This document shows positions 4,794 through 19,487 of a DNA stretch of 36,861 bases, one piece after another. The notes beneath the pieces are model-generated. The model saw nothing but the letters and a program-made list of their open reading frames with translations, ran no database searches and was not told the origin of the DNA. Source of the stretch: Pseudidiomarina aestuarii. Its GTDB lineage: Bacteria; Pseudomonadota; Gammaproteobacteria; Enterobacterales; Alteromonadaceae. The stretch covers positions 1 through 36,861 of the forward strand of contig PYVG01000010.1 of the NCBI GenBank assembly GCA_003030745.1, in the 5' to 3' direction. Each line of letters opens with the position of its first letter. The first letter of the stretch is position 1. Both the position numbers and the translations under genes were made by a program.

Positions 4794-5719
4794 TTCGGGC
4801 GAGTTGGTTTACCAGCCAGAACCATAACGGCAGGGTGAGAAAGCAGAACACAATGCCATAACCGACAATGGCCGCAGCTAACGTCGGCGCGAGTCCTGCC
4901 ATAATTGCTAATGCCCCAGCTGAAATCATCGCAGGCATCGCTGCCTCTAGTAGTGTCACCTGAACCACCAGTTGGTCGAGACCAAAAGGCCATAGTAATC
5001 CCAGTACTACCAGTGGAGTGAGCACTAACTTAATCACGAGCGCGCCAAGCAATGGCCCACGATCTTCCTGCGGCAAGCGAAACTTCAACTGAAAGCCGAC
5101 GGCGACCATAATGACCGGAACCAGCGTCACCGCCAATGAATCAATAAAACGTTGAACTGCCGCATGGTAGTCAATAGAGCGACACAGAAGCGCCACAATT
5201 AATGCAATGAACGGCGGGAAGGTGACGATTTTCTTGGTTAGCTGCCAAGCGCTCGGACGACGCGCCTCGCCACCGGGATCGGCGCTATACACCGCCGCTA
5301 TAATGGTCGCGTAAATAGATAGAATTAAGAAGGAACCCAGTTGATCATACAACAGCGCAAACGGAATCCCTGCAGGACCGAAAAAGGCTTCGATCATTGG
5401 AAAACCGACAAATGAGGTATTCCCCCAAAGGCACAATAATCAGCATGGCGCCCGTTGTTGAACGCGACCACTGAAAGCGGCGACTGCACCACAGCAACAA
5501 CGGCACCGTCAAAGCTAGTAATAACCAAGGTACCACCGCAGGAATGACCAGCGCGGTGGATAACTCTAATAGAGGAATTTTTTGTAGGACTAACGCAGGT
5601 AATGCCACGTAAATAACGTAGGCATTGAGGATCTGGCCCGTATTTTGTGGGAATTGCCGGCTGCGTTGTAGCAGTAAACCTATCAACAAATAACCGGCAA
5701 TAAATAAGAAATTAGCCAT
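4786..5719 (-). pseudogene. AEC (auxin efflux carrier) family permease, interrupted by a frameshift
   Basis: Two overlapping frames encode one protein. Residues from 5719 down to about 5427 (start MANFLFIAGYLLIG, good AGAGAGGATC upstream) give the N-terminal transmembrane half up to MLIIVPLG. The continuation NTSFVGFPMIEAFFG and the C-terminal half run in another frame to the TAG at 4786. The break falls in a run of five C (five G on the coding strand) at 5422-5426. Removing one base gives a continuous 310-residue, roughly ten-helix protein of normal AEC length with the conserved GNTSFVGFP. AEC members export or import small organic anions; the substrate here is unknown. It could be a real recent mutation, a heterogeneous site or a sequencing error. 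The rest of the frame is undamaged, so any inactivation would be very recent. Confidence 0.85.
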
Positions 5720-5749: not shown

Positions 5750-6694
5750 TTAGAAGCGGTGTTCAATCCCGATAGCTACATAGCTTTGGTCAGCATTGAT
5801 GGTTTCTAAGTCACGACCAGTGTACCAAGCAAAGACTTTGGTGCTTTTACTAAATTTATAATCTGCACCAAACGCCAGTGAATTATCACGCCCATCTTCA
5901 AAGTCCATCATTTGGTACTGAACCTTCGCGACGAACTTACCAAATGGACGTTGTGCACTGACCACATAACCATCGGCTTGCGCAGTACCATCGACTTGCT
6001 CTTGATCTTGCCACATTAGACCAACCATGGTCTCTCCGACGTTGGTATAACCAACCGCACGAATAATGTCATAGCCTTCGACTTTCGAGTCCATACCTGC
6101 TGCAAGATAGTAACTGGTATCGTCTAAGTCTTCGTCACCATAAGTCACCGCCATCGAAATACCATCATCAACGGCGTCGTCTTCACTGACTACGTAGCTC
6201 GCCGCAACAGCAAATTGATTCCATTTTGGCGAGTAGTACGACAACGTATTTTTCGTGCGATTCTCGCCTTCAAATAAGGCTTTCACGTCAGCCTCATAAT
6301 CACTAAACGCGTCGATATCACCTTGCAGTGTTTTCAACACGGTATCACGACGGCCAATGGTCACTTCACCGAAGTTACCGCGTAAGCCAATATACTGATT
6401 CCGCGACTTCAAATTATCATCGCTACCCAAATCAGCAACATCCACTTGCCATTCTAATTGGTAAATGACTTCAAGTGTGTCGGTTAACTGCGCGCCCCCC
6501 TTCACACCAATGCGTGAAGCATTGCTAACAACTTCGCTATCGCTGCCCGCACCGTCATCTGACTGTTGCAGCGAAACATTGATACGACCATAGAAGTCAA
6601 AGGTAGGTTCGTCTGCTGCAGATACAGCAGTATAGGGTGCAGACAAAAGCAATGCACCAGCGACAAAAAATGTGTTCTTAAATGAGTTGATCAT
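5750..6694 (-). CDS. Outer-membrane general porin (16-stranded type), predicted Pho-regulated
   Basis: Predicted trimeric beta-barrel porin of the OmpC/PhoE-like gram-negative class. A signal peptide (MINSFKN, hydrophobic core, cleavage near AVSAADEP) is followed by FDFYGRINVSL, then SRIGVKGG, GLRGNFGEVTIGRRDT with a putative constriction loop L3, and many alternating beta strands, ending in the C-terminal Phe of EHRF used for barrel assembly. The mature protein is rich in Asp and Glu. An in-frame ATG 9 bases upstream (6703) is an alternative start. The gene is the last of the central minus-strand block, 165 bases after the TPR gene, and has its own Pho-type promoter. A GCTCG-gta-CGAGC stem lies in the leader (6720-6732). 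Anion selectivity, as in E. coli PhoE, is suggested by regulation but not shown by residues. Confidence 0.88.
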   Translation of the reverse strand: MINSFKNTFFVAGALLLSAPYTAVSAADEPTFDFYGRINVSLQQSDDGAGSDSEVVSNASRIGVKGGAQLTDTLEVIYQLEWQVDVADLGSDDNLKSRNQYIGLRGNFGEVTIGRRDTVLKTLQGDIDAFSDYEADVKALFEGENRTKNTLSYYSPKWNQFAVAASYVVSEDDAVDDGISMAVTYGDEDLDDTSYYLAAGMDSKVEGYDIIRAVGYTNVGETMVGLMWQDQEQVDGTAQADGYVVSAQRPFGKFVAKVQYQMMDFEDGRDNSLAFGADYKFSKSTKVFAWYTGRDLETINADQSYVAIGIEHRF

Positions 6695-6763
6695 GTGCGC
6701 CATCCGATAATTATATGCTGCTCGGTACGAGCGCGCCTAGCGACACGCTCATCTTGGTTGCAT

Positions 6764-6797
6764 ATGGTATGGCACTTTTATGACAGCTTCATGACTC
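6764..6797 (-). promoter_or_regulatory. Putative PhoB-activated promoter of the porin gene
   Basis: On the minus strand GAGTCAT-gaag-CTGTCAT (6797-6780) gives two Pho-box repeats 11 bp apart; the second is perfect and the first has two mismatches to CTGTCAT. After exactly 10 bases comes the -10-like TACCAT (6769-6764). The next 11-bp register, GTGCCAT at 6775-6769, is a weaker third repeat. There is no good -35 box, as expected for a PhoB-dependent promoter. It lies about 70-103 bases upstream of the porin ATG. Confidence 0.68.
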
Positions 6798-6859
6798 TAT
6801 GAATCTTTTTTGTCATTTACATTTCAGTTTTACGTCACTTTCATTGCAAATTATTGATT

Positions 6860-8125
6860 TTATGATGAAGATTTACGCAATTCAGTCAACCGGTCGCGCT
6901 GCTCTTTTTCTGAGCTGGTATAGCGTTCCCACTGATTCGCTGTGCGTCGGACATCATCAAATTGCTTCGCTTGCGCAAATGCTCGGAGTGCTTCGTTGAA
7001 ATTTTCTAAATTCAACTCCGCCATACCAATTACTAAATGCATATTGCCCGGTTGTTCCACACCACCTTTTTCTAAGGCTCGGCGGGCCGCACGAATGGCT
7101 TCTTGGTTGCGCTCTGCATTAATCAGCACCTGGGCGCGTTGCGCATCAAGCTCGCCGTCTTCACTCAGTTCAGCCGCAGCTTCTAATGCAGCAACCGCTT
7201 TATCAGTTTCGCGCGCGGCAACCCAGCTTTGTGCCAACATTTTCAGGTTACGTAAGTTACGCTCAATTTTACCTTCTTCAAGTCCACGCTCGAGCACCTT
7301 ACCGGCTTTGTACGGAACATCACTGAAGAAGTAGCTTTGCGCGAGATTCATCAGGTCGCTGCCCTTCGTCAAGAAACCTTGCTGGTAGGCTGCTTCTAAT
7401 AACGCCAACTGCTTAGCTTCTTGACCCAGCTGACCATAGACGCCAGCCAATTGAATCCAATACTCAGGCTTATTAAACGCTTTCACCATGGTTGCTAGCA
7501 CATCAGCAACCGCTTCGGTGTTACCCAATTCAAAGTGAATCGCACGTTGCAACAGGTACCAGTTTTCGTCACCGTAATTACCCTCGGCTTCTACTTTCTC
7601 GATAGCAGCAGTAATCGGCGCTAACGCCTCTGCATAGCTTTCTTGCTGATACAAGGCTTGTGCTTTTAAGACCAAGGCTTTGGTTTGCTCGGCATCACCG
7701 ACCAGCGCTTGCCAGCGGTCTAAGAATGCCAGGGTGTCATCATAACGACCCTCACCCAGAGCCAACTGCGCTAAGCTGAATAAAGTGTTTTGTTGCAATG
7801 ACTCTGGAATCGGATCTTCATCGACTACTTTGCTGAAGTAGTGAATAGCTCGCTCAATGTTGTCTTGACCGTAATACATGTAGCCATAGAAGTTCCATAA
7901 CATGGCGCGTTCATAGCTATTCATGCTGCTGATCTTGGCCTCTACATTTTGCAATGCAGCAATACCCGCAGGAACGTCACCGGCATCAGCCAGCTCTTGA
8001 GCGCGTGCCAACTGGCTATACACTTGCTCACGCAAAGCCGGTGTGCGTTTGCGCTCTTGCGACTCAGCAACCTGCAACGACGTTGCAAATAACACCAATG
8101 CGATTAAAAATAAGTGACGTTTCAT
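6860..8125 (-). CDS. Periplasmic TPR protein of the TonB2-type system
   Basis: 421 residues with a signal peptide (MKRHLFLIALVLFATSLQVA, cleavage near 20-22) and then an all-helical tetratricopeptide-repeat array through most of the protein. Examples are MLWNFYGYMYYGQDNIERAI, TLFSLAQLALGEGRYDDTL and NMHLVIGMAELNLENFNEAL. It is the last gene of the six-gene operon, 15 bases after tonB2. The same order (DUF3450, ttpC, exbB, exbD, tonB, TPR) is known from Vibrio TonB2 loci (VC1548-VC1543 in V. cholerae), where the TPR protein is a periplasmic accessory. I infer a scaffold role for the TonB complex or its receptor. No terminator is visible between it and the porin gene, so some read-through into the porin is possible. 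Confidence 0.88.
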   Translation of the reverse strand: MKRHLFLIALVLFATSLQVAESQERKRTPALREQVYSQLARAQELADAGDVPAGIAALQNVEAKISSMNSYERAMLWNFYGYMYYGQDNIERAIHYFSKVVDEDPIPESLQQNTLFSLAQLALGEGRYDDTLAFLDRWQALVGDAEQTKALVLKAQALYQQESYAEALAPITAAIEKVEAEGNYGDENWYLLQRAIHFELGNTEAVADVLATMVKAFNKPEYWIQLAGVYGQLGQEAKQLALLEAAYQQGFLTKGSDLMNLAQSYFFSDVPYKAGKVLERGLEEGKIERNLRNLKMLAQSWVAARETDKAVAALEAAAELSEDGELDAQRAQVLINAERNQEAIRAARRALEKGGVEQPGNMHLVIGMAELNLENFNEALRAFAQAKQFDDVRRTANQWERYTSSEKEQRDRLTELRKSSS

Positions 8126-8140
8126 GAGGCGATCCTCTGG

Positions 8141-8749
8141 TTAACCATCTATCTCGAAGGTAATGCGGTTTTGCACGCCTTCCACTTCCACCGCATCGCC
8201 ATTGACAACGCGTGGCTTGTATTTGAACTTCAACACCGCATCCATGGCAGCTTGATCAAAGATACTTTCCGGCTCCGCTTCAACCACACGCGGGTCACGA
8301 ACCGTGCCTTGGCGTGTGACCGTAAACTCGACCACGACATAGCCTTCGATACCGCGCTGTAATGCCCGACGCGGGTAAGCGGCTTGTACTTTAACAATCG
8401 GCAAATATTCACCATCACTGGTATCTAAACCGAGACCACCCGACAAGTTCGTATCGGCTTGAACCGTGGCACTGAAGTCAAAGCCCGCGGCATCACTAGT
8501 TTCGGCTACCGTATCTGACTGCGGTTGCGGTAAATCAGGTGGCGGCTCTTCTGGCTCCGGCGGACGCTCGGGTTTGCGTTCCTTTTCCTGCACCACCTCT
8601 TCGGGCTTCACGCGCACAAAGTCGAGAACACTGCCACGGGGCGGGTCAGTCATTGCACCCTCACCACCTGTGATCAGTGATTGCATTAGATAAAACAAAC
8701 CTAATGTAACGACTAGTGCGACGGCTAAAGCGGCAAAGAATCTCATCAT
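8141..8749 (-). CDS. tonB2: TonB2-type energy transducer
   Basis: 202-residue TonB-family protein that carries inner-membrane proton-motive energy to an outer-membrane receptor. One N-terminal transmembrane anchor (residues 3-26) is followed by a proline- and glutamate-rich periplasmic linker (about 49-78, with KPERPPEPEEPPPDLPQP) and a C-terminal TonB domain (about 115-202). That domain carries the YP motif (Tyr125-Pro126), RRALQRGIEGYVVVEFTV and FKYKPRVVNG. It is shorter than E. coli TonB (239), as usual for TonB2 types, and lacks the SHLS-like anchor motif in recognisable form. It starts 2 bases after exbD2. The likely client is the TonB-dependent receptor at 13374-16010, predicted to be under the same control. 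Other receptors elsewhere in the genome could also use it. Confidence 0.94.
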   Translation of the reverse strand: MMRFFAALAVALVVTLGLFYLMQSLITGGEGAMTDPPRGSVLDFVRVKPEEVVQEKERKPERPPEPEEPPPDLPQPQSDTVAETSDAAGFDFSATVQADTNLSGGLGLDTSDGEYLPIVKVQAAYPRRALQRGIEGYVVVEFTVTRQGTVRDPRVVEAEPESIFDQAAMDAVLKFKYKPRVVNGDAVEVEGVQNRITFEIDG

Positions 8750-8751
8750 AA

Positions 8752-9159
8752 CTAGTCTTCTTGCGTTGCAATGGAGACGTCGAATACACCGGCTGCGCGC
8801 GCTGCATCCATAACTTTGATCAAGGTTTCAGTTGTGGCTTTTTTATCGGCTTGAATGACCACAGAACCTTGCGGGTTTTCCGCATACAAACGTTCAATGT
8901 TGGCTTGCACCGCACGCGCATCGACCTGACGTTTGTTGATCCAGATTTCGCCGGTATCGCTGATCGCAACCAAGATATTGGCGCGGTCTTTCTGCACAGC
9001 GGTAGACGCCTCTGGACGGTTCACATCAATACCCGCCTCTTTCACAAAGCTCGCGGTCACGATAAAGAAGATCAGCATGATAAAAACAACGTCCAACATG
9101 GGCGTCATATCAATGGCTGTTTCTTCTTCATCAATCAAATTCGCAAAATGCTGTTTCAT
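8752..9159 (-). CDS. exbD2: ExbD-family proton channel subunit
   Basis: 135 residues, topology of one transmembrane helix plus a periplasmic domain. The helix DMTPMLDVVFIMLIFFIVT holds Asp23, equivalent to the proton-carrying Asp25 of E. coli ExbD. The periplasmic part shows the ExbD fold (NILVAISDTGEIWIN, GSVVIQADKKATTETLIKVMDAA). With ExbB2 it forms the proton-driven motor for TonB2. It lies 27 bases downstream of exbB2 and 2 bases upstream of tonB2. TolR is a related family, but the operon with tonB favours ExbD. Confidence 0.95.
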   Translation of the reverse strand: MKQHFANLIDEEETAIDMTPMLDVVFIMLIFFIVTASFVKEAGIDVNRPEASTAVQKDRANILVAISDTGEIWINKRQVDARAVQANIERLYAENPQGSVVIQADKKATTETLIKVMDAARAAGVFDVSIATQED

Positions 9160-9186
9160 CGGGTGAGACTCCTCATCCTTACCGAA

Positions 9187-9711
9187 TTAGTGTTCGAGCA
9201 GTAAGCGTTCTTCGAGCTTCAATCGCTCGCGCTTCGCTGTACGTTGCAACCAAGTGGTCGCGAAAACTCCGGATAGTGCGCCGACCATGCCTGCCATGGT
9301 TGGAATCGTAGCTTTGGATACGCCAGCCGCCATCGACCGTGCATTCCCAGTACCCGATACCGCCATCACGTCAAACACTTCAATCATGCCGGTCACGGTG
9401 CCCATCAAACCTAACAACGGACACAGAGCAACAAGTGCTTGCAGAACCGGTAAATTCCCACCGAGTGCAATAGCTGTGCGGGAAATCATCGCCTGCCGAA
9501 TTTGTTCGGCATTCCACGACGATTTATCGGCTCGTGCTTGCCAAGTGCTGCGAACATATTTGACGCGCTCGCGATGGCCTTTGACGTAGTAAAAGACGCG
9601 TTCCAGAATCATCAACCACATCACAAAAATCAGTACCCCGATGATCAGTAGTACCTGACCACCGGTTTCAATAAAGTCCTGAATAGCGCTGTAAAAGTCG
9701 ATCATGAACAC
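9187..9711 (-). CDS. exbB2: ExbB-family proton channel subunit
   Basis: 174-residue MotA/TolQ/ExbB protein with three predicted helices: GGQVLLIIGVLIFVMWLMIL (about 17-36), the PVLQALVALCPLLGLMGTVTG segment, and the GVSKATIPTMAGMVGALSGVFA segment. The family motif GLMGTVTGMIEVF is intact. It forms the pentameric scaffold around ExbD. It starts 2 bases after ttpC. ATG 9711 and the in-frame ATG 9705 are both possible starts. It is distinct from the longer ExbB-like TtpC upstream; having both is typical of TonB2-type loci. Confidence 0.94.
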   Translation of the reverse strand: MFMIDFYSAIQDFIETGGQVLLIIGVLIFVMWLMILERVFYYVKGHRERVKYVRSTWQARADKSSWNAEQIRQAMISRTAIALGGNLPVLQALVALCPLLGLMGTVTGMIEVFDVMAVSGTGNARSMAAGVSKATIPTMAGMVGALSGVFATTWLQRTAKRERLKLEERLLLEH

Positions 9712-9713
9712 AA

Positions 9714-11078
9714 TTAGTGCCCCCGCTCAGAACGCTCCGCAATAATTCCCGAAGCCTGCTCTTGCAATACATGCACGATGTTCTTGCTACGCGTGTTGAG
9801 CGTTGCGAACAACAACGTCATCGGAATTGCTACCACCAAACCAAGGACGGTCGTTACCAAGGCTTGCGAAATACCGCCTGCCATCAGTTTCGGGTCGCCC
9901 GTACCAAATAAGGTAATGGCTTGGAAGGTGTTGATCATGCCCGTTACGGTACCCAAGAGACCCAACAGCGGTGCAACAACCGAGATGATCTTGATGAAGG
10001 TTAGGTTGCGCGTGATCTTAGGAACTTCGCGCAAAATCGCTTCACTCAATTTCAATTCCAGCGTTTCGGTGTCGACTTGTGGATACTTGTCTTGAACCTG
10101 CATGACGCGACCCAACGGGTTGTCATCACGGGCTGTGGTGTCTTTCAACTGCTTGCGAACTTTGCCACCCATCAGAGTCAAGGTAACGAAGCGCTCCAGT
10201 GCAATCAGCAAACCAATCAGGCCAAGTGCCAAAATGACGTAGCCAACGGTTCCACCTTGGTCAACGCGCTCGCCCAAGTCCGGTGCTTGCACTAACAAGC
10301 CAAGAATCGAGCCACCCGTCGGATCCAGTCCGAACTGCACTAAGCCATTAGACTCAGTCTGCACAGCTTCAGCGGTGTCTAAAAAGCGCGATGCTGGCTG
10401 GCGAATCAGTTCAGCAACCGTGTCCGTACCTGGAACGAGCTCCAAGTACCTGCCATCAGCAACCATGTTGAACGTGCCGACACGAACCACTTCTTTCTCT
10501 ACTTTCTCGCCATTCGCCAAGGTCACCTGAGTATTAAACTCACTGACTTTGCCTGACTCGGTCATTTCTTGTTGCAATGCAAACCAGACCGACTCAATTT
10601 CTTCAATGGATGCAAGCTTCGAACTCGAACCCATCTTTTGTGCGAGTTCGCTGAGGTTCTCGCTACGACCCGGGAATTCCACAGAAACGTAGGAGTTTTG
10701 CAATTTACCGCTGGTGTCACCCGCGACTTGCTGAAGTACACCAAAAAGTTCACGCAACGAGCCCATGCGCTGTGTCAACGCATCGGTCAAATTGCCAAGT
10801 TCAACTTCATTTTGCTCGAACTGCGTTTCTAAACGCTCACTCAACTGCTCTAAACGATCACGCTCATCAATGGCTTCGCGCAGGATGCGCTGTTGCTCAT
10901 CGGCTTCGGCACGGAAGCGCGCTTCACGTTCTTTATTTTCTTCTGACTGAGCAAACTGCCCTTGCTGCAACTGGCGCAACAGTTCATCCAAATCAACCGG
11001 CTCTTGCGGTGCTGCGGATACCGATGACATCATGACAACCGCGAAAGCAATAAGTAATGTTTGTAACCCTTTCATCAT
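9714..11078 (-). CDS. ttpC: TtpC-like TonB2 system inner-membrane component (coiled coil plus ExbB domain)
   Basis: 454 residues. A signal sequence (cleavage near SVSAAP, residue 22) is followed by a periplasmic coiled coil (about 25-120, rich in Glu, Arg and Gln) and a periplasmic beta-rich segment to about 275. Then come a transmembrane helix (GYVILALGLIGLLIALERF, 279-297) and a MotA/TolQ/ExbB domain (about 340-445) with PLLGLLGTVTGMINTF and GGISQALVTTVLGLVVAIP. In Vibrio, TtpC is needed with ExbB2, ExbD2 and TonB2 for siderophore uptake. Its start codon overlaps the DUF3450 stop in a TAATG junction, implying translational coupling. Plain ExbB is excluded by the length and the periplasmic N-terminal half. 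Confidence 0.92.
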   Translation of the reverse strand: MMKGLQTLLIAFAVVMMSSVSAAPQEPVDLDELLRQLQQGQFAQSEENKEREARFRAEADEQQRILREAIDERDRLEQLSERLETQFEQNEVELGNLTDALTQRMGSLRELFGVLQQVAGDTSGKLQNSYVSVEFPGRSENLSELAQKMGSSSKLASIEEIESVWFALQQEMTESGKVSEFNTQVTLANGEKVEKEVVRVGTFNMVADGRYLELVPGTDTVAELIRQPASRFLDTAEAVQTESNGLVQFGLDPTGGSILGLLVQAPDLGERVDQGGTVGYVILALGLIGLLIALERFVTLTLMGGKVRKQLKDTTARDDNPLGRVMQVQDKYPQVDTETLELKLSEAILREVPKITRNLTFIKIISVVAPLLGLLGTVTGMINTFQAITLFGTGDPKLMAGGISQALVTTVLGLVVAIPMTLLFATLNTRSKNIVHVLQEQASGIIAERSERGH

Positions 11079-11854
11079 TATTCTCCCGCAGCTGAATCAG
11101 CAGTAAAAATTGGCAACATGAGTAAGTCTGGTGCTAACTGCTTACGAGCGATACGCAATGCTTCTTGTACGTCACGACCATAGCTACCATCCAGTGGCTG
11201 CCATTCACGTTGTTGTTGATTCCAAACGCCCATGGTGCCGCCATCACGCGTGCGGTAAATGAACACGGTACGGCCCACACGCAAGAACTCGACGTCTTGC
11301 TCTTGGCCATCAACGTCCATAGCACCGTTGTACGCTTCAATGTTGCGGCCGTAATCGGCTTCAATTTGGTAGGCTTCCATCACGCGACGGAATTTCTCAG
11401 ATACATCCACATCAGCGCGGTCCATCAAGTCACGGAGGTTCGCGACGCGATCTTTGCGCTCATTAGGTAAAAATGGGACATCCAGACGAACAAAAGCGTC
11501 GAGACTATCGATCATGCGTAACATCAGTGGCGTGATTTGACGTTCAACCACGCTGACTTCGTCAATCGACGAGTTTAATTCAGCTTTCTCGATGTCTTGA
11601 CTGTCCAACTGCTTTTGCAACTGTTGCGTATAGACGTTGAGTCCATCAATTTGACGAGAAATTTGTTTGTACTGTTGAATCCGCTCTTGAATGGAATCGG
11701 CAATATCTTCCACTTTGAGTTGCGAGCTTTTCGCAGATTGGTTGATGGTGCTGGCAGCATCCACAACCGGTTCGAGGGACTGATCTTGCGCGAATACTGT
11801 TGCTGTTGAAAACAGCGTCAGCACCAGCACAGAAGGAATAGACACAAGCCGCAT
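11078..11854 (-). CDS. DUF3450 periplasmic coiled-coil protein
   Basis: 258 residues: signal peptide (MRLVSIPSVLVLTLFSTATVFA, cleavage after 22), then a long coiled coil (about 35-105: SIQERIQQYKQISRQIDGLN, YTQQLQKQLDSQDIEKAELN). A C-terminal globular part carries FLPNERKDRVANLRDLMD, FLRVGRTVFIYRTRDGG and the family-typical Trp and Leu residues. This is the DUF3450 family, which in gammaproteobacteria heads TonB2-type loci. No molecular function is established that I know of. The position, the secretion signal and the coiled coil suggest a periplasmic partner of TtpC. It is the first gene of the six-gene operon and stands behind a Pho-type promoter. Confidence 0.9.
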   Translation of the reverse strand: MRLVSIPSVLVLTLFSTATVFAQDQSLEPVVDAASTINQSAKSSQLKVEDIADSIQERIQQYKQISRQIDGLNVYTQQLQKQLDSQDIEKAELNSSIDEVSVVERQITPLMLRMIDSLDAFVRLDVPFLPNERKDRVANLRDLMDRADVDVSEKFRRVMEAYQIEADYGRNIEAYNGAMDVDGQEQDVEFLRVGRTVFIYRTRDGGTMGVWNQQQREWQPLDGSYGRDVQEALRIARKQLAPDLLMLPIFTADSAAGE

Positions 11855-11891
11855 GGCAACACCCTACATATCGTGATGAATGATGGATTGC

Positions 11892-11925
11892 ACAATACGG
11901 CAATTGTGTGACAGCTTGGTGACTG
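11892..11925 (-). promoter_or_regulatory. Putative PhoB-activated promoter of the DUF3450-ttpC-exbB2-exbD2-tonB2-TPR operon
   Basis: On the minus strand CAGTCAC-caag-CTGTCAC (11925-11908) forms an 18-bp Pho box with one mismatch to CTGTCAY-N4-CTGTCAY. It is followed by exactly 10 bases and TATTGT (11897-11892) as the -10. The predicted start of transcription is near 11885, about 30 bases before the ATG at 11854. This is the best single Pho box of the window by consensus. Confidence 0.75.
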
Positions 11926-11940
11926 CTTTATTTCAGTTAT

Positions 11941-11955
11941 GTGTCAATGTGACAC
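11941..11955. promoter_or_regulatory. Palindrome GTGTCA-ATG-TGACAC upstream of the TonB operon Pho box
   Basis: A perfect 6-bp inverted repeat with a 3-base centre lies between the mechanosensitive channel stop (11977) and the Pho box. On either strand it is not followed by a good U tract in a sensible place, so a terminator is less likely than a protein-binding site. It would centre at about -63 relative to the predicted start. Its arms resemble single Pho half sites but they point at each other. Function unknown. Confidence 0.35.
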
Positions 11956-11976
11956 TTTTATGCTGTTTTAATGTCT

Positions 11977-13254
11977 TTATGATTGTTTTTGTTCGGATTT
12001 TTCGGTTTCACGCTGCGCACTAAAGGCTTCACCTAAAGTGCGCATGTCGACGCCACTAGGATGTTGGAATACCCGTAAACCGAACTCACTCACAATGGCA
12101 TACAAATGGTCAAAAATGTCAGATTGAATCTGCTCATACTCGGTCCATTTGATGGTGTTGGTGAAACAATACACCTCGAGTGGTAAGCCGTCCGCGGTTG
12201 GGTTTAACTGCCGCACCATCAATGTCATGTCTTGATGAATGTGCGGATGACTTTTCAGATACTCGAGAACATAAGCGCGGAAGGTTCCTATGTTCGAAAT
12301 CCGTCGGGTGTTCACGGGCTCTTTGCCAGCATCTTTGAGCTCTTGGTTCCAAGCGTCAATCTCTTCTTGCTTGGTTTTCAAGTAATCCTGCAATAGTCGA
12401 AAACGGCGCAGTTTGTCGCGCTCTTCGGTGCTGAGGAAGTGAATCGACTGTTGATCCAGGAACAGGCTGCGCTTAATTCGGCGCCCACCGGACTCTTGCA
12501 TACCGCGCCAGTTTTTAAAGGGATCGGAGATAAACCGCTTGGTTGGAATAAAGGTGATGGTTTTATCCCAGTTCTGCACTTTCACTTGGTGCAACGCGAT
12601 ATCAATGACATCACCATCGGCATTGAGGTTCGGCATTTCGACCCAATCACCTACCCGAATAATGTCATTTGAGGTGATTTGCACACTCGCGACCAGTGAC
12701 AGCAACGTATCTTGGAACACCAACATGACCACGGCGGCCATGGCACCTAAACCAGAGAGGAGTATAACCGGCGACTTATCAATCAGCGCGGCAATGACCA
12801 AAATAGCTGCAATGGCATAAATGCCAATCTTAACCACTTGGATATACCCCTTAATCGGCCGCAGATGTGCGTCTTCGCCGCGTTCATAAAAGGTATTGAT
12901 GACCGTCAATACACCACTAATCGAGCGGGCAACAGTCAAGATAATGAATGCGATGGAGACGTTATCAACAACAATTGCCACTGTTTCCGCTAAGTTCGGA
13001 ACTTCGATAATCCAGTGGGAGATAACCAACGCAGGAACAACGTTGGCTAGGCGCGCAATGACATTTCGCTCGAACAATTGGCGATCTTTACCAACCGGAG
13101 TGAATGACAGGATTCGCAGGGCACCGCGCAGCAGTATCTTTTTGACGATAAAGTTGGCGACCCAAGCGCCAACCAACAGTACTGCCAAATAAGCGAGCGT
13201 TTCCATATCGGGTCGCTCACTGAGCCAAGCTTGTACTTGCGCTATTGAATCCAT
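11977..13254 (-). CDS. ybdG: YbdG-type (MscS superfamily) mechanosensitive ion channel
   Basis: 425 residues, closely similar in layout to E. coli YbdG (415), a miniconductance channel that helps survival of osmotic downshock. Several N-terminal transmembrane helices (about 20-40, 68-84, 95-118, 136-158) precede the pore helix GLGAMAAVVMLVFQDTLLSL (168-187). The beta domain follows with GDWVEMPNLNADGDVIDI and VQNWDKTITFIPT, and then the C-terminal domain with SGGRRIKRSLFLD, SNIGTFRAYV, HQDMTLMVRQLNP and TEYEQIQSDIFDHLYAIV. It lies between the receptor operon and the TonB operon on the same strand. The receptor operon ends in a terminator in front of it and no Pho box precedes it, so it is probably transcribed on its own. 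Confidence 0.92.
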   Translation of the reverse strand: MDSIAQVQAWLSERPDMETLAYLAVLLVGAWVANFIVKKILLRGALRILSFTPVGKDRQLFERNVIARLANVVPALVISHWIIEVPNLAETVAIVVDNVSIAFIILTVARSISGVLTVINTFYERGEDAHLRPIKGYIQVVKIGIYAIAAILVIAALIDKSPVILLSGLGAMAAVVMLVFQDTLLSLVASVQITSNDIIRVGDWVEMPNLNADGDVIDIALHQVKVQNWDKTITFIPTKRFISDPFKNWRGMQESGGRRIKRSLFLDQQSIHFLSTEERDKLRRFRLLQDYLKTKQEEIDAWNQELKDAGKEPVNTRRISNIGTFRAYVLEYLKSHPHIHQDMTLMVRQLNPTADGLPLEVYCFTNTIKWTEYEQIQSDIFDHLYAIVSEFGLRVFQHPSGVDMRTLGEAFSAQRETEKSEQKQS

Positions 13255-13327
13255 GCTTTTCTCACCTGCTGTTACTGAGGTTGTTTCCTGCAGACACGAT
13301 AAACCAAGAGTCGCAAGGGCTCAACAT

Positions 13328-13354
13328 GAAAAAGGGAGCCGTGTGGCTCCCTTT
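13328..13354 (-). terminator. Rho-independent terminator after the TonB-dependent receptor gene
   Basis: Perfect 10-bp stem AAAGGGAGCC / GGCTCCCTTT (13331-13340 and 13345-13354) with a 4-base loop. On the minus strand the stem is followed by a run of T (13333-13329). It lies 20 bases after the receptor stop codon and upstream of the mechanosensitive channel gene. Confidence 0.9.
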
Positions 13355-13373
13355 CAACTAACTACATTCCTAA

Positions 13374-16010
13374 TTAAAAGGAGTAGCTGTATTCCACACT
13401 CACGCCAGTGCCGACTGAACGTTCTTGAATGGTGATGCCATCTTGTACAATGGAGACATCGTCACCCAGTAAATTCTGAACTTTCAGTTTTACATTGGAG
13501 TTAAAGTCAGGATACCAAGTATAAACTAAGTCTAAGCTATGGAATGGTTGCTCGAACGCGTCGCCAATACCCAACTCACCTTGTTTCACACCAGCGAAGG
13601 CAATCCGCTCGCCCGCAACGTTGTAAATCAATGATGCACTATGCTCGCCATCCAAAGAGTCGTAACCGAACTGCAGGTTAGCAACGTACTTAGAATGGCC
13701 GGTCATGCGACGAGTGTTATTGGTCAATTCGACGTTACCCGTATTCGCGATGCTGATTTCCGAATCCGATAACGTCAAGTTACCGCTTACGAACAAACCA
13801 TCACGCAATCCAGTCAAGTCTTTCAAGAACTCAAATTCAACGCCGTAAACTTCACCGGCTTGATCGTTCAAGAAAGTAATAACGCGGTCTGAATCGGTAC
13901 CTTTGGCTTCAACGGCTTCAATCGGGTTCGCTAGATCTTTATAGAACAAACCAACCGAGTAGTTTTCGCCAGCTGGCAGGTACCATTCCCAACGCATGTC
14001 AAAGTTATCAATATCAGTGGTCGACAAGTTACTGTTACCACGGACCTTGAAGTTGGTGATTGGGTCAACGAACAAGACTTCAGTCAACTCACGCAGGTCT
14101 GGACGCACCACGGTGCTACCGTAACCAAAACGTAACTGCATTTCGTCGTTCAATTGATAAGTCAACGCAATACTACCGTAGATGTCATCTTCAATGCGTC
14201 CAGCTTCTGCAACATCACCAATCACTGTCATGTTACGTATGTCGAGCTGTGCCGCTACTTGCGTGTACTGCTCCCAACGCAAGCCACCGCTCACCCGCCA
14301 ATCATTATTCAGATTGATGTTGAGCAAACCATAGCCCGCTTCAACCTGCTGTGCGGCAAGGTAGTTCGGGTCCGTTGCTGTCGGTGCACCGAACAATTGA
14401 AAGCCGAAATCTTCATCGATTAGGTTGCTATCGCTGAACAGCTCATCATAGCCAACGCCCTGCAACGCATCATTGGCGACTGTTTCAGCCGAAATCGCGA
14501 AGCGACGTGAAAACGATGAACGTGCCTTCTTCGAGAGCTGACCACCGCCCTGAACCAACACTTCAACAGAATCAAAATACAAAGGCAGTTCAACATCGAC
14601 TCGCCAATCTTGTGCGTCATCTTGCAGCTCTTGGTACTGCAGCGTTGTGGCTGAACGCGTTTGTTGGAACGCTAAGTCACCAACACCATCGCCTAAATCA
14701 CGGTTGCTAATTTGACGATAGAACACTTCGCCTGGCGCATAGCGATTAGCTTCAGACTCTGCATACTGCCAATCCACCGCGATATTCCACAACTCAGGGA
14801 AGAAGTGTGAACCACGCACTTGATTGGTCAATAATTCACGCTCTTCGTAGCGAATGTCTGTATCGAAGAATGACAAATTACTTTCAGTAATTGAGTTTGC
14901 AGTCTCAATACCACCCTGCTCTACGCGGTCTTGCGTATTGCGCAGGAATATCGTTGATGTTTCTACTTTATGGTAATCACCGTATTGCAAGCCGAAATTT
15001 AAAATACCACTGAGTTCAACCGTCTGCGCGGTGACTCGTGAAGCGGCATCTTGAATCACAACGGATTGGCCATCGGCAATACCGAGAACTTTCTCAGTTT
15101 CTTCGCTATTTGACCAACTGTTGTCATAGTCAACGCCAGCGAGAAAACCAAAAGTCCAATCGTCGTAGATATTGAAGCTATCACCAAAACTCACTGAGCC
15201 TTTGACATCTGGGCTCAGGCTTTTGGTATAAACTTCGTTCTGCGTATTCAATGAGGCTGCCAGGCTGCGGTTGATCGCTTGCGCGTCAGCAATGGAAATA
15301 CCATCCACATTCGCAATATTCGCAGCATTGATGTTTTCTTGATAGCGCGCCAAAGCTGAGGCCATCGCACCCGATAACGCACGTGAGCCGTCGTCGGTGC
15401 CTTTCCAGTCACTACCGCCGCCTGCATAGGTCAAGCCATCGTCACTGAAGTTGGAATCCCAACCCGTGCCAATCGATACTTCAAAAACTTGGTCGGAAGG
15501 AATAGAAACGGTGCGAATGTCGACGTTACCACCACCAAAGTTTGCTGGCATATCCGGCGAGTACGACTTCTGTACTGACATACTCTCAATAATGCTCGCT
15601 GGGAACATATCGAGTGGAATGACGTTTCGAGTCGGATCGGGCGAAGGCACAGACGCGCCGTTGAGCTGCGTACTCGAGTATCGTTCACCTAAACCACGAA
15701 CATAGATAAACTTGCCATCTACCAACGTAAGGCCGGTGACACGGCGTAATGCAGAGGCGGCATCACTGTCGCCAGTCCGCGAAATTTGTTCGGCACCCAA
15801 AATGTCGGCAACGAAAGCCTGAGCTTTACGTTCTTCGACAACTGCTGCGGCCGATCCTTGTAACCGCGTGCCTGTAGTGACCACTTCTTCAATGGTTTCA
15901 GCGCTTGCGGCGTCTGTAGCTGCTTCTTGAGCAACCGCAAGCTGGGTAGAGAGTGCTATTGCAACAGCAATCCCAACCTTGCTTTTGGTTAAAACGGCAT
16001 GCTTTTTCAT
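13374..16010 (-). CDS. TonB-dependent outer-membrane receptor, predicted Pho-regulated
   Basis: 878 residues. Signal peptide (cleavage near QLAVAQEA, residue 27), a TonB box-like IEEVVTT (40-46), then the plug domain (about 55-170) with SDAASALRRVTGLTLVDGK, YVRGLGERYSSTQLNGA and SPDPTRNVIPLDMFP. A 22-strand barrel follows, ending in VEYSYSF with the C-terminal Phe. The plug matches a class of large receptors common in Alteromonadales and Bacteroidetes whose substrates are mostly unassigned. There is no N-terminal signalling or carboxypeptidase-like extension. It is downstream of, and co-oriented with, the Asp-rich lipoprotein gene, with 75 bases between, and ends at a strong terminator. The shared Pho-type promoter suggests uptake of a phosphorus-containing ligand. 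That is inference; iron chelates or others cannot be excluded. Confidence 0.93.
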   Translation of the reverse strand: MKKHAVLTKSKVGIAVAIALSTQLAVAQEAATDAASAETIEEVVTTGTRLQGSAAAVVEERKAQAFVADILGAEQISRTGDSDAASALRRVTGLTLVDGKFIYVRGLGERYSSTQLNGASVPSPDPTRNVIPLDMFPASIIESMSVQKSYSPDMPANFGGGNVDIRTVSIPSDQVFEVSIGTGWDSNFSDDGLTYAGGGSDWKGTDDGSRALSGAMASALARYQENINAANIANVDGISIADAQAINRSLAASLNTQNEVYTKSLSPDVKGSVSFGDSFNIYDDWTFGFLAGVDYDNSWSNSEETEKVLGIADGQSVVIQDAASRVTAQTVELSGILNFGLQYGDYHKVETSTIFLRNTQDRVEQGGIETANSITESNLSFFDTDIRYEERELLTNQVRGSHFFPELWNIAVDWQYAESEANRYAPGEVFYRQISNRDLGDGVGDLAFQQTRSATTLQYQELQDDAQDWRVDVELPLYFDSVEVLVQGGGQLSKKARSSFSRRFAISAETVANDALQGVGYDELFSDSNLIDEDFGFQLFGAPTATDPNYLAAQQVEAGYGLLNINLNNDWRVSGGLRWEQYTQVAAQLDIRNMTVIGDVAEAGRIEDDIYGSIALTYQLNDEMQLRFGYGSTVVRPDLRELTEVLFVDPITNFKVRGNSNLSTTDIDNFDMRWEWYLPAGENYSVGLFYKDLANPIEAVEAKGTDSDRVITFLNDQAGEVYGVEFEFLKDLTGLRDGLFVSGNLTLSDSEISIANTGNVELTNNTRRMTGHSKYVANLQFGYDSLDGEHSASLIYNVAGERIAFAGVKQGELGIGDAFEQPFHSLDLVYTWYPDFNSNVKLKVQNLLGDDVSIVQDGITIQERSVGTGVSVEYSYSF

Positions 16011-16029
16011 GAGAGACTCCGTATGCGTA

Positions 16030-16091
16030 GACTAATCTTGATGATTCAAAGAGATTGCACGTCCGTGTGCAGAATATTCATTTGATTAGTC
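16030..16091 (-). repeat. Inverted repeat bracketing the lipoprotein-receptor intercistronic gap
   Basis: GACTAATC (16030-16037) and GATTAGTC (16084-16091) are perfect 8-bp complements. They flank a 46-base segment with an inner TGCAC-gtccgt-GTGCA stem (16056-16071). The outer arm overlaps the lipoprotein stop codon. There is no U tract, so it is more likely an RNA-stability or partial attenuation structure than a terminator. Confidence 0.4.
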
Positions 16092-17564
16092 GCGCAGACC
16101 GACTGTCCAGCCGTTAGTCCAATCGTCGTCTTCACTTACTGCACCGATAAAATCAACATCATCAAAGAATGGGTCGATGGTGCTCAAATCAGATTTAGGT
16201 GTGACGGTTACTTCAGCGCCTGAAGCGTCAGTGATAGTGCTTGCAGTAACATAACCTGAGCTTAACACTGTCGCCATTTCATCCAGCGTCACGTTCGTTG
16301 GATAGCTTTGGAACCAATCTTGTGTTGGTTGGTCAGCGAAGTTTTCGCTACAAGCAATGATGGAGTTTTCAATCGACAAATCGCCTGCTTGCGCCGCTGC
16401 TAAGGTGGTTGCTTGGTCAATTTCCAAACACTCGCCGCGCGCATCGGTAATCAAGAAGTTATACAAAGCACCACGAGTACCTTCACGGAGCAACACACCT
16501 TCAGACTCGTCTGAACCGTCAGTCGCCGTCAATGAACCGATTGAGGTGAAGTTTGCGATAATTGGGTTAGAGAATGGCGTTGCGTCGTTGTTACCGCTAT
16601 TACCGTCTGCCTCAATGGCACGGTTTGCGCGGTCATCCGCATGCTTCACTAAGATATATTGAATTTTACCTTGCCAGCCGTCAGCCCAGTCTAACGAGTC
16701 ATCGTCGTTACCAGTCAGAACCACGTTTTTCACGTTAGCAGCGCCACCGAAGAACTCGATGCCGTCGTCCAAGTTGTTGTGAACTTGGATGTACTCAAGT
16801 GTAGTACCAGAACCTACTGCGTTGAACGTGATACCGTTCAATTCGTTGTCTAAAGAAACTTCATAACCAGCGTATTTAACTAAAGCATAGCGAATTGAAC
16901 CTGAGTTATCTTCGTTGTCGTCGCCACCATAGAAACCTGCGCCGCCTTCACCTTGAAGTACACAGTTCGCCAAATCGCTTTGATCACATTTGTTCGAAAT
17001 TCCGAAGCCGTTGATCACCAAGCCACCCCACAAACCACGAGCGTTCGGGTTGGTTATTTGGTTGTCGAGTTCTTGCACAGAAGTGAATGTGATTGGGGCA
17101 TTACGGTTGCCGTTCGCTTCGATGTTCGCGCCGCGAGCGATACGAACGAATGAATCGCCATCTTCAAACGCTAGGGTTGCGCCAGCATCGATAGTCAATG
17201 TTGGACCTTCACGGTTCACATCAGCTGTTGCTTCAACGTTTTCACCAATGTACAAACCATTTGGGAAAATATGTGCGCCACCTGGCAATTCTACCAAGCG
17301 GATGTCAGTTACTATCGGTTCTTCTGGAGTAGAGAAGCTGCGTGGATAAACACAATCAGCACCAATCTTCTCACCTTGTACGCTGGTGCCATCAACTTCA
17401 TACGAAGCACAGTTGTTGGTCGCGCCGCCGCCACCCGAGTTATTGGTGGAGTTATCGACTGAGTTGTCGATAGAGGTCGGAGTCAAGTTGATGTCGCCAC
17501 CACAGCCAGCGAGGAATAATGCTGCGGTTACAGCGCTCAGAGCAAAAATATTCGTGCGTTTCAT
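16086..17564 (-). CDS. Asp-rich, predicted parallel beta-helix surface lipoprotein paired with the TonB-dependent receptor
   Basis: 492 residues from ATG 17564 (GGAG 7-9 bases upstream; an upstream in-frame ATG at 17726 would run through the promoter and is rejected). A lipobox LAGC puts the lipidated Cys at 21. The next residues are Gly-Gly, not Asp, which favours the outer membrane. A Ser/Asn/Gly-rich tether (about 24-50) follows. The body has many short hydrophobic strands separated by turns of Gly, Asn and Asp (ANIEANGNRNAPITFTSVQ, RGLWGGLVINGFG, LEYIQVHNNLDDGIEFFGG, VVLTGNDDDSLDWADGW), suggesting a right-handed beta-helix. Six further Cys (52, 71, 193, 201, 379, 405) could form three disulfides. 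Asp clusters could bind calcium. I do not recognise an enzyme. It is the first gene of a two-gene operon with the receptor, behind a tandem Pho box. Confidence 0.85.
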   Translation of the reverse strand: MKRTNIFALSAVTAALFLAGCGGDINLTPTSIDNSVDNSTNNSGGGGATNNCASYEVDGTSVQGEKIGADCVYPRSFSTPEEPIVTDIRLVELPGGAHIFPNGLYIGENVEATADVNREGPTLTIDAGATLAFEDGDSFVRIARGANIEANGNRNAPITFTSVQELDNQITNPNARGLWGGLVINGFGISNKCDQSDLANCVLQGEGGAGFYGGDDNEDNSGSIRYALVKYAGYEVSLDNELNGITFNAVGSGTTLEYIQVHNNLDDGIEFFGGAANVKNVVLTGNDDDSLDWADGWQGKIQYILVKHADDRANRAIEADGNSGNNDATPFSNPIIANFTSIGSLTATDGSDESEGVLLREGTRGALYNFLITDARGECLEIDQATTLAAAQAGDLSIENSIIACSENFADQPTQDWFQSYPTNVTLDEMATVLSSGYVTASTITDASGAEVTVTPKSDLSTIDPFFDDVDFIGAVSEDDDWTNGWTVGLRD

Positions 17565-17613
17565 ATCGGTCTCCGTTGAGAAAGTAAGACGTATGTAAAA
17601 AGTTACGCGGTGA

Positions 17614-17669
17614 ACTTTAAGTGGGTTATGTGACAGCGGGGTGACACCGATATGAATGCTTTGTGACAA
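17614..17669 (-). promoter_or_regulatory. Putative tandem PhoB promoter of the lipoprotein-receptor operon
   Basis: On the minus strand the proximal Pho box is GTGTCAC-cccg-CTGTCAC (17647-17630). Exactly 10 bases later comes TAAAGT (17619-17614), a -10 candidate. Continuing upstream in 11-bp steps are CATTCAT (17658-17652) and TTGTCAC (17669-17663), so four repeat units are in one helical register, as in strong multi-box Pho promoters. The predicted start of transcription is about 45 bases upstream of the lipoprotein ATG. Confidence 0.75.
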
Positions 17670-17744: not shown

Positions 17745-19487
17745 ATGACCACCACCAGTATTTCCAAGTCACTGTTGACCAGCGTTCTCTCTGTCTACTT
17801 TGTATTGACAGTGTTAGTGACGGCTGTCCAAGTGGTTGGTGAATATTACGATACCCAAGAGTTGTTGGTTGAAGAGCTACGCAACCAACAAGCGACCTTT
17901 AGTAACTCTCTGGGGCGTTCATTGTGGGAATACAACTACCCACAAATTGATGCCATTGCGCAGGGGTTGATCAGTATTCCCGCTATATCCGGCGTCGTCA
18001 TTCGTGATGATACCGGTGCAGTGCTGGCAAATCTCGGCCGTACAGGACCATTAAGCATACTCCCACAAGAGCCAATGGAGAGTTACACGTTGGCTGAACG
18101 AGAAGGACTCTTCGGCTACTTTTCTACCTTGGTGTTTGAGTTCTCGGGCAATTCGACACAAGTAGGTGATGTGACGCTCTTCTCAACGCGGGATATAGCC
18201 ATTGACCGAATCAAGGTAACTTTGTATTTCATCTTTGGCAGCGCGCTCGTGAAAAGTACTTTCCTGATTTTGTTGTTTAGCTTGGCGTTCAACCGCATGC
18301 TGAACCGACCGATGCTTGATTTGACCAACCAAATTCGTCAGTTCCGCCTCGAAGATTTACCGCGCTCAAAGATTCATTTGAAAAATCAACGGAATCGTGA
18401 GTTTACGATGATTGAGCAAGCCTATAACCAGCTGCTTGATAATTTGGCGGACTACCAAGCCGACCTCACCCGCACCCAACAACAGTTTGAACAGGTGAAT
18501 CGGCAGTTAGATGATCAGAACGCCATTCTCGAGCAAGAAGTTGCCCGTAAAACATCGAGCCTCAGCGGCGTATTGGTAGATTTAGAGCGCCGTAAATCCG
18601 AACTTGAAGCGCGACAAGAAAAGCTCGAACGGGAAATTCGTCAGCGGCAAGAAATTGAGCGCGACTTGCGGGAAACCAATACTCGTCTACAAAACTCATT
18701 ATCAGCATTGGAACGTGCGCAAACACAATTGATTGAATCTGAGAAAATGGCATCGCTCGGTGGTTTGGTTGCGGGTATCACGCATGATGTGAATACGCCT
18801 ATTGGGGTCAGTATTACTGCTGCGACTTTTATACGTGACCGCATTAATCAACTCCAACAAGCCTTAAAGGATAAGAACCTGACTCAAGCACAGCTCGCTG
18901 CCTTTCTTGATGAGAGTGATGAAGGACTGACGCTACTGGAGAACAATCTGACTCGAGCGTCTGATTTGATCGGTAGCTTTAAACAAGTTGCCGTCGACCA
19001 AACCTCTGAAGCCGTTCGAGAGATTAATTTGAAGAAATATCTTCAGGACGTCATTCAGGCATTACAGCCGCATTTTAAAAATTCAAAACATGTTATTCAG
19101 TTGGATATCGACTCAGCCATTACCATTCGCTGTCCCGCGGGAGCTATTGCTCAGATTTTTACTAACTTAATTCAAAACTCGCTGATTCATGGCTTTGAGA
19201 ATCAATCACGCGGGGAAATCACCATTCAAGCGCGACGCGATGGCGATAAGCTGCTCTTCAATTACTCGGATAACGGCAAAGGGTTGACTCAAGAACAACT
19301 CGAGAAGATTTTTGACCCATTCTTTACCACCCGCCGCCAACATGGTGGTACCGGATTAGGCACGCACATTGTGCGCAACTTGGTAACCCAAACACTAAAC
19401 GGTGTCATTCATGCAGACGCCGCCCCGGGCAAAGGACTGAAATATACGTTCGAGATGCCAATGCAATTCATCGACTCAACAAATTAA
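17745..19487 (+). CDS. Orphan membrane sensor histidine kinase
   Basis: 580 residues. Transmembrane helix 1 (about 10-30), a periplasmic sensor region (about 31-155), helix 2 (about 158-185), a HAMP-like stretch, then a long coiled coil (about 225-335, rich in Glu, Gln and Arg). The dimerisation/phosphoacceptor domain carries ASLGGLVAGITHDVNTPIG with His347. The ATPase domain has the N box IFTNLIQNSLIHG (471-483), G1 YSDNGKGL, F box DPFFTT and G2 GGTGLGTHI. No receiver domain is attached and no response regulator gene is in the window, so its partner is unknown. It runs divergently from the Pho-controlled lipoprotein operon with 180 bases between the start codons. rdgC follows 21 bases downstream. 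The ligand is unknown. It is not PhoR, which has a short N-terminus and a PAS domain. Confidence 0.9.
   Translation: MTTTSISKSLLTSVLSVYFVLTVLVTAVQVVGEYYDTQELLVEELRNQQATFSNSLGRSLWEYNYPQIDAIAQGLISIPAISGVVIRDDTGAVLANLGRTGPLSILPQEPMESYTLAEREGLFGYFSTLVFEFSGNSTQVGDVTLFSTRDIAIDRIKVTLYFIFGSALVKSTFLILLFSLAFNRMLNRPMLDLTNQIRQFRLEDLPRSKIHLKNQRNREFTMIEQAYNQLLDNLADYQADLTRTQQQFEQVNRQLDDQNAILEQEVARKTSSLSGVLVDLERRKSELEARQEKLEREIRQRQEIERDLRETNTRLQNSLSALERAQTQLIESEKMASLGGLVAGITHDVNTPIGVSITAATFIRDRINQLQQALKDKNLTQAQLAAFLDESDEGLTLLENNLTRASDLIGSFKQVAVDQTSEAVREINLKKYLQDVIQALQPHFKNSKHVIQLDIDSAITIRCPAGAIAQIFTNLIQNSLIHGFENQSRGEITIQARRDGDKLLFNYSDNGKGLTQEQLEKIFDPFFTTRRQHGGTGLGTHIVRNLVTQTLNGVIHADAAPGKGLKYTFEMPMQFIDSTN

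Follow-up and report, generated by a model that had tools for sequence, protein, structure and literature searches.

Conserved PhoB-type promoters at a TonB2-type motor, an ElpS-like lipoprotein-receptor pair and a porin of Pseudidiomarina aestuarii suggest a phosphorus uptake system

The 36,861-nucleotide stretch of Pseudidiomarina aestuarii DNA analysed here (contig PYVG01000010.1; the window) carries on its minus strand a lipoprotein gene with an adjoining TonB-dependent receptor gene, an MscS-type mechanosensitive channel gene, a six-gene TonB2-type motor operon and a porin gene, with Pho-type boxes at three of their promoters. The predicted surface lipoprotein (16086..17564; 492 residues, precomputed Pfam family PF28492) has the lipobox LAGC and is ElpS-like, and the 878-residue receptor beside it (13374..16010), with plug and barrel, would be its CC0171-like partner. 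The motor operon is opened by ttpB (DUF3450, 11078..11854; PF11932, 294 bits; named after PMC6957404) and continues with ttpC (9714..11078), which encodes a MotA/ExbB domain and a weak DUF3450-like N-terminal part below the Pfam cut-off, then exbB2 (9187..9711), exbD2 (8752..9159), tonB2 (8141..8749; TIGR01352 above cut-off) and lastly ttpD, encoding a TPR protein (6860..8125); this is the TonB2-type order throughout. A general porin (Porin_4/Porin_1, 5750..6703; PF13609, 118.5 bits) completes the set. The initial annotation had listed receptor, lipoprotein, motor and porin, all of which are borne out, but had omitted the channel gene (11977..13254) lying between receptor and motor. The channel is probably not a functional part of the system, and its gene has a Pho box of its own in none of 22 loci. 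A terminator scan of the window gave 16 candidates against 14.1 in shuffles and so does not settle the operon ends, and no Rfam element reaches its gathering score in the window.

PhoB binds 11-bp repeats arranged in tandem, and its recruitment of RNA polymerase takes the place of a -35 element. This layout, direct repeats in 11-bp phase with a -10 hexamer 10 bp downstream, is present at all three minus-strand promoters, which read exactly as the initial annotation had described them. The porin promoter (6797-6764) has GAGTCAT-GAAG-CTGTCAT, 10 bp and TACCAT, the motor promoter (11925-11892) CAGTCAC-CAAG-CTGTCAC, 10 bp and TATTGT, and the lipoprotein promoter the core GTGTCACCCCGCTGTCAC N10 TAAAGT (17647-17614, repeats GTGTCAC-CCCG-CTGTCAC), extended by an additional in-phase TTGTCAC-AAAG-CATTCAT unit that starts at 17669, so that the whole feature spans 17614..17669. 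Scored with a 14-position consensus, the window has five placements of at least 12, four in these promoters and one intragenic (27841), and a score of 13 is reached at two of the three promoter sites; first-order random sequences average 0.8 placements at 12 and have none at 13. We also built a 34-bp weight matrix from 21 pstS/pstC promoter sites in 13 genomes of Idiomarinaceae; neither the window nor promoters orthologous to its own contributed a site. The training sites were picked by a consensus box plus a -10 at the assumed distance, which excluded five of the 13 pstC stretches for lack of an 11/14 box, and the matrix, being trained on Idiomarinaceae, may under-score other families. It gives 19.7 for the lipoprotein promoter, the best place in the window, 12.4 for the porin promoter and 11.4 for the motor promoter, where a register that overlaps it and is shifted 11 bp upstream (11936) gives a marginally better 11.8. 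These promoters are the three best independent places on either strand, the next unrelated place scoring -0.3, and this ranking holds both for training sites selected by nothing but the 18-bp box and for a training set that omits the pstS site of the closest relative. Four places in the window (three independent) score at least 11, all within the three promoters, and 200 dinucleotide-preserving shuffles yielded six such places in all, i.e. 0.03 per window.

Conservation of the sites in relatives, which had been set beforehand as a test, was surveyed in 80 related loci with a box threshold of 8 that was fixed after the window scores were known. A near group of 44 loci comprises Idiomarinaceae, Alteromonadaceae, Thalassotalea, Rheinheimera and one unplaced metagenome bin, and a distant group of 36 comprises Vibrio, Photobacterium and metagenome bins. 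In the closest locus, L001 of P. aestuarii KYW314, 16 of 17 window proteins are 91-100% identical and the seventeenth is a split gene. A box before ttpB reaches the threshold in 42 of the 44 near-group loci compared with none of the 36 distant ones, and boxes precede the lipoprotein gene in 16/19 loci and the porin gene in 29/33. The loci below 8 are L017 (4.8) and L043 for the motor, L019, L035 and L042 for the lipoprotein, and L023, L026, L028 and L030 for the porin. As controls, 302 stretches upstream of ten further genes, intra-operon ones included, all stay below 8 (best 3.5), and random 370-bp pieces of loci of 15 kb or more reach 8 in 0.9% of cases, real sites included. A second TonB2-like operon found in 15 near-group genomes is likewise without a box (0/15). 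Where the lipoprotein gene has a different genomic position, the box is present there too: seven Idiomarinaceae genomes encode, at another site, an ElpS-type lipoprotein with 41-45% identity to that of the window, and all seven genes are preceded by a box (scores 10.5-28.3). The pst-trained matrix and this conservation at orthologous promoters and at relocated genes thus uphold the PhoB-type control proposed initially, and on this comparative evidence PhoB-type regulation of the three promoters is close to certain.

The boxed motors belong together phylogenetically. In a ttpB tree of 95 rows, for which the box threshold was 5, the 43 boxed rows together with L017 (4.8) form a single clade with support 100/99; L118, L127, L156, L157 and L158 were left out as repeats of loci already included, and L173 and L174 as having no DUF3450 match. 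Pho control requires two changes on this tree, one gain and one borderline loss, and none of 500 label shuffles needs so few, which, as far as ttpB sequences can tell, establishes a single origin of Pho control in the motor clade. Among 295 sampled genomes of the order some ttpB is present in 166, of which 25 stand apart at 51-60% identity, the next being at 45%; a box precedes ttpB in 23 of these 25 motor-clade genomes compared with none of the five next-best. Elsewhere, locus L258 combines an ElpS-type lipoprotein and a receptor with Pho-like boxes scoring 13-14 and a DUF3450-TtpC-ExbD-TonB operon that is only distantly related (ttpB match 19% identical), which might represent a further capture by PhoB, independent of the first.

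The same six genes in identical order form the TonB2 operon of Vibrio (ttpB2-ttpC2-exbB2-exbD2-tonB2-ttpD2), for which, in Vibrio vulnificus, a putative Fur box and induction on iron depletion are reported (PMC6957404). This likeness would be the ground for taking the locus as an ordinary TonB2 iron or siderophore system in which the Pho-like sites arose by chance. Such a reading is very improbable given boxes conserved at three promoters and the linkage to phoBR and pst described below, and it was rejected in that no Fur box rises above the random level before the motor operon, on a crude 19-mer consensus score (best match 11/19 in the window and 10-12 in L001-L044). The window motor differs from Vibrio TonB2 in having a Pho-type instead of a Fur box and in falling into a clade separate from the sampled Vibrio homologues. 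Phosphate rather than iron control, as first suggested, accordingly stands, with the motor adjoining phoBR/pst in several genera.

P. aestuarii, the nearest relative, has PhoB (TIGR02154, 362 bits, cut-off 296) and PhoR. A strict pattern allowing at most one mismatch finds nine places in its 2.6 Mb genome, seven of them inside 36 kb, before the lipoprotein gene, ttpB, the porin gene, two Oar-like receptor genes, pstS and pstC; phoB-phoR and an Exo_endo_phos protein gene lie in the same island. The remaining two strict places precede a PhoA-type phosphatase gene and a hydantoinase-like gene, and with up to two mismatches there are 23 places compared with six for the reversed pattern. In three of four Idiomarina loci examined the porin and transporter genes are followed directly by phoB-phoR and then pstS, while in the fourth (L025) one gene intervenes and the locus ends after phoR. 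Rheinheimera lutimaris has phoR-phoB, receptor-lipoprotein, motor, porin, phoU and pstB-pstA-pstC contiguously, and in L251 the motor, the receptor pair and the porin lie with phoBR and pstS. Contig breaks may hide links in such counts: of the 12 motor-bearing genomes checked, 7 have phoB no more than 21 kb from ttpB, and of 12 genomes that have the lipoprotein without the motor clade, one has phoB near the lipoprotein gene.

The two Oar-like TonB receptors of the island (L146:6790-13822), which have carboxypeptidase-regulatory domains and Pho boxes scoring 28.6 and 14.1, adjoin the Exo_endo_phos protein just before phoBR and may, together with it, serve uptake of phosphorus from nucleic acids. 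A hydantoinase/carbamoylase-family amidase gene of P. aestuarii stands behind a Pho-like box (14.8) at L150:3266-4576. Divergent to the lipoprotein gene of the window and adjoining rdgC is a plus-strand histidine kinase gene (17745-19487), with a HATPase domain, a weak CHASE5 match below cut-off and no HisKA match; it has a Pho box in none of 34 loci, and the kinase-rdgC pair adjoins the motor in Idiomarinaceae loci and phoB in L255 and L256. Next to the porin gene, a minus-strand Mem_trans (PF03547) transporter gene (4786-5719) is split over overlapping open reading frames in different frames (5345-5719 and 4786-5436), which may reflect a frameshift, a sequencing error or a decaying gene.

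The lipobox-bearing lipoprotein and its adjoining receptor look like the ElpS-CC0171 pair of Caulobacter crescentus, in which a surface lipoprotein gene likewise adjoins a TonB-dependent receptor gene (PMC2996285). We call the pair ElpS-CC0171-like because in other proteobacteria the lipoprotein and receptor genes are followed by gspC-gspD-gspE, matching the Caulobacter order of elpS (cc0170), cc0171 and type II secretion genes (PMC2996285); the assignment is by gene arrangement and literature. The Flavobacterium proteins FI-FIII share 31-36% identity with ElpS at 50-54% coverage (PMC8115612). Among 7994 candidates scored, 3306 are homologues of the lipoprotein, and the 120 listed, query included, carry PF28492; a sample of 398 genomes of the phylum has an ElpS-type lipoprotein in 52. 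A beta-helix fold may be supposed from the name 'Right handed beta helix' that one source gives to a homologue and from what is reported for FII, and the invariant acidic residues D266, D267, E270, D288, D289, D292, E318 and D320 would, at a guess, suit a metal-bridged or catalytic site. No relative in the PDB was found by sequence for either the lipoprotein or the receptor, and a SusD-like lipoprotein was rejected for want of a match in the Pfam library used. ElpS-type domains also occur in tandem, with two copies common in frames of about 900-965 residues and three encoded by open frames of some 1,400 (G544, G578, G579 and G644; loci L297, L311, L299 and L298). In Thalassotalea (L156:11349-12419, and L036) the receptor and the motor flank a gene for a metallo-beta-lactamase-fold hydrolase (PF12706), possibly a phosphodiesterase, which may point to the ligand.

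The gsp neighbourhood is confirmed by Pfam in L226 and L238 (T2SSC, secretin and T2SSE), and a scan of 30 window proteins, a subset of the reading frames in which those beside the pair are included, shows no type II secretion gene. Adjacency to type II secretion genes in relatives would fit a role in which the receptor exports or displays the lipoprotein, as a secreted phosphorus-mobilising factor, rather than importing a nutrient, and an export or display role has reportedly been proposed for the Oar receptor of Myxococcus. TonB-dependent receptors normally import, however, and we consider export improbable here. In its favour, ElpS of Caulobacter does not need the type II system to reach the surface, is subsequently released, and is associated with raised alkaline phosphatase activity, but deletion of cc0171 left ElpS production intact, surface display in the mutant not being described in the available part of that report (PMC2996285). 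The Flavobacterium authors, too, read low-phosphate receptors as importers of organic phosphorus (PMC8115612).

We therefore favour, with a probability of about 0.62, a reading in which the whole is a PhoB-activated, energised outer-membrane acquisition system for a phosphorus-containing ligand, its role probably being phosphorus scavenging rather than iron acquisition. On phosphate scarcity PhoB would occupy the tandem repeats, recruit RNA polymerase in place of a -35, and switch on, with Pst, three units: lipoprotein plus receptor, the TtpB-TtpC-ExbB-ExbD-TonB-TtpD motor, and the porin. On the cell surface the lipoprotein would capture, and perhaps trim, a polymer or ester containing phosphorus, the receptor would import this ligand on the energy of the motor, periplasmic phosphatases would free phosphate for PstSCAB, and the porin would admit free phosphate by diffusion. 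The promoters, their conservation, the motor gene order and the phoBR/pst link in several genomes are established at the level of sequence, the phosphate control and surface position of the lipoprotein find support by analogy in the literature on relatives, and we infer the substrate, the direction of transport and the driving of this receptor by this motor.

The last of these steps is where an alternative must be weighed, in which the motor, under Pho control, energises every receptor of the phosphate-starvation response, the Oar-like ones as well as the ElpS-type pair, and is not reserved for its neighbour. We judge this somewhat unlikely in view of co-occurrence: the ElpS-type lipoprotein is present in all 25 sampled genomes with the motor clade (6 + 8 + 11), and among 119 sampled genomes of the order it is present in only 19, which include all six with the motor clade (hypergeometric p 8e-6), a comparison in which kinship is uncorrected. 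The ElpS-type pair is, on the other side, far from the motor in several Idiomarinaceae genomes, and further observations weigh against the acquisition system as we propose it. The motor may serve, instead of the ElpS-type pair or in addition to it, the two further Pho-boxed receptors of the P. aestuarii island (28.6 and 14.1). Of the 44 nearest motor loci, 24 show no lipoprotein gene, though some contigs are short, and 13 of the 19 lipoprotein-positive genomes, one by a weak partial match, are without the motor clade. Just three of 12 full lipoproteins without the motor clade have a box of at least 8, so the pair can evidently work otherwise, and the association of lipoprotein box and motor is itself weak at that score (15/25 vs 3/12, Fisher p 0.08), becoming clearer at a score of 5 (21/25 vs 4/12, p 0.006). 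In Caulobacter, moreover, cc0171 is reported to be expressed constitutively, and intracellular phosphate showed no change (PMC2996285).

ElpS itself is surface-exposed and made under phosphate starvation but not iron starvation, the iron part being given as 'data not shown' (PMC2996285). The Caulobacter pair differs from that of the window in adjoining type II secretion genes, whereas the window pair adjoins a TonB2-type motor and a porin, each Pho-boxed; the available text on ElpS-CC0171 mentions no motor (PMC2996285). PhoB is known to control TonB receptors in Caulobacter (PMC11208175). In Flavobacterium johnsoniae, the phoBR cluster has receptor and lipoprotein genes (FI/FII/FIII and PusCD), and FI-FIII and neighbouring receptors are strongly induced by phosphate depletion; this is a different phylum, PusD is SusD-like whereas the window lipoprotein is not by Pfam, and the part of the report available describes no motor operon (PMC8115612). 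A further counterpart is exbB2-exbD2-tonB4 of Pseudomonas aeruginosa (PUMA3/sigma-VreI region), an uncharacterised putative TonB system of the phosphate-starvation regulon beside a putative outer-membrane porin and accompanied by type II and two-partner secretion systems; it is controlled via sigma-VreI, and the accessible parts of the sources name neither ttpB, ttpC or ttpD nor an ElpS-type pair (PMC7035377, PMC4971064). The system is thus less singular than the initial annotation supposed, parts of it having published precedents in Caulobacter ElpS, in the low-phosphate lipoproteins and receptors of Flavobacterium and in exbB2-exbD2-tonB4 of P. aeruginosa. A search of open-licence papers, term-matched and mostly on titles and the beginnings of abstracts, recognised no published PhoB-controlled DUF3450/TtpC operon.

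Discussion of TonB motors mostly concerns iron, vitamin B12 and glycans. P. aeruginosa is already reported to have a putative TonB system regulated by phosphate, and Caulobacter to have TonB receptors controlled by PhoB. The apparent novelty lies in a motor clade of the TonB2 type whose PhoB-type control is direct, ancestral and conserved, and which is linked to an ElpS-type pair and in several genomes to phoBR-pst. It is possible, and we put it forward tentatively, that this clade is a dedicated phosphorus energiser, captured once by PhoB, retained next to phoBR-pst in some of the Alteromonadales and related lineages, and working together with an ElpS-type pair that imports intact phosphorus macromolecules. 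A motor clade under direct PhoB control would offer a testable route for organic phosphorus uptake across the outer membrane of marine bacteria, a defined gene set in which to find the function of ElpS-type lipoproteins, and a way to recognise phosphorus-specific receptors in metagenomes.

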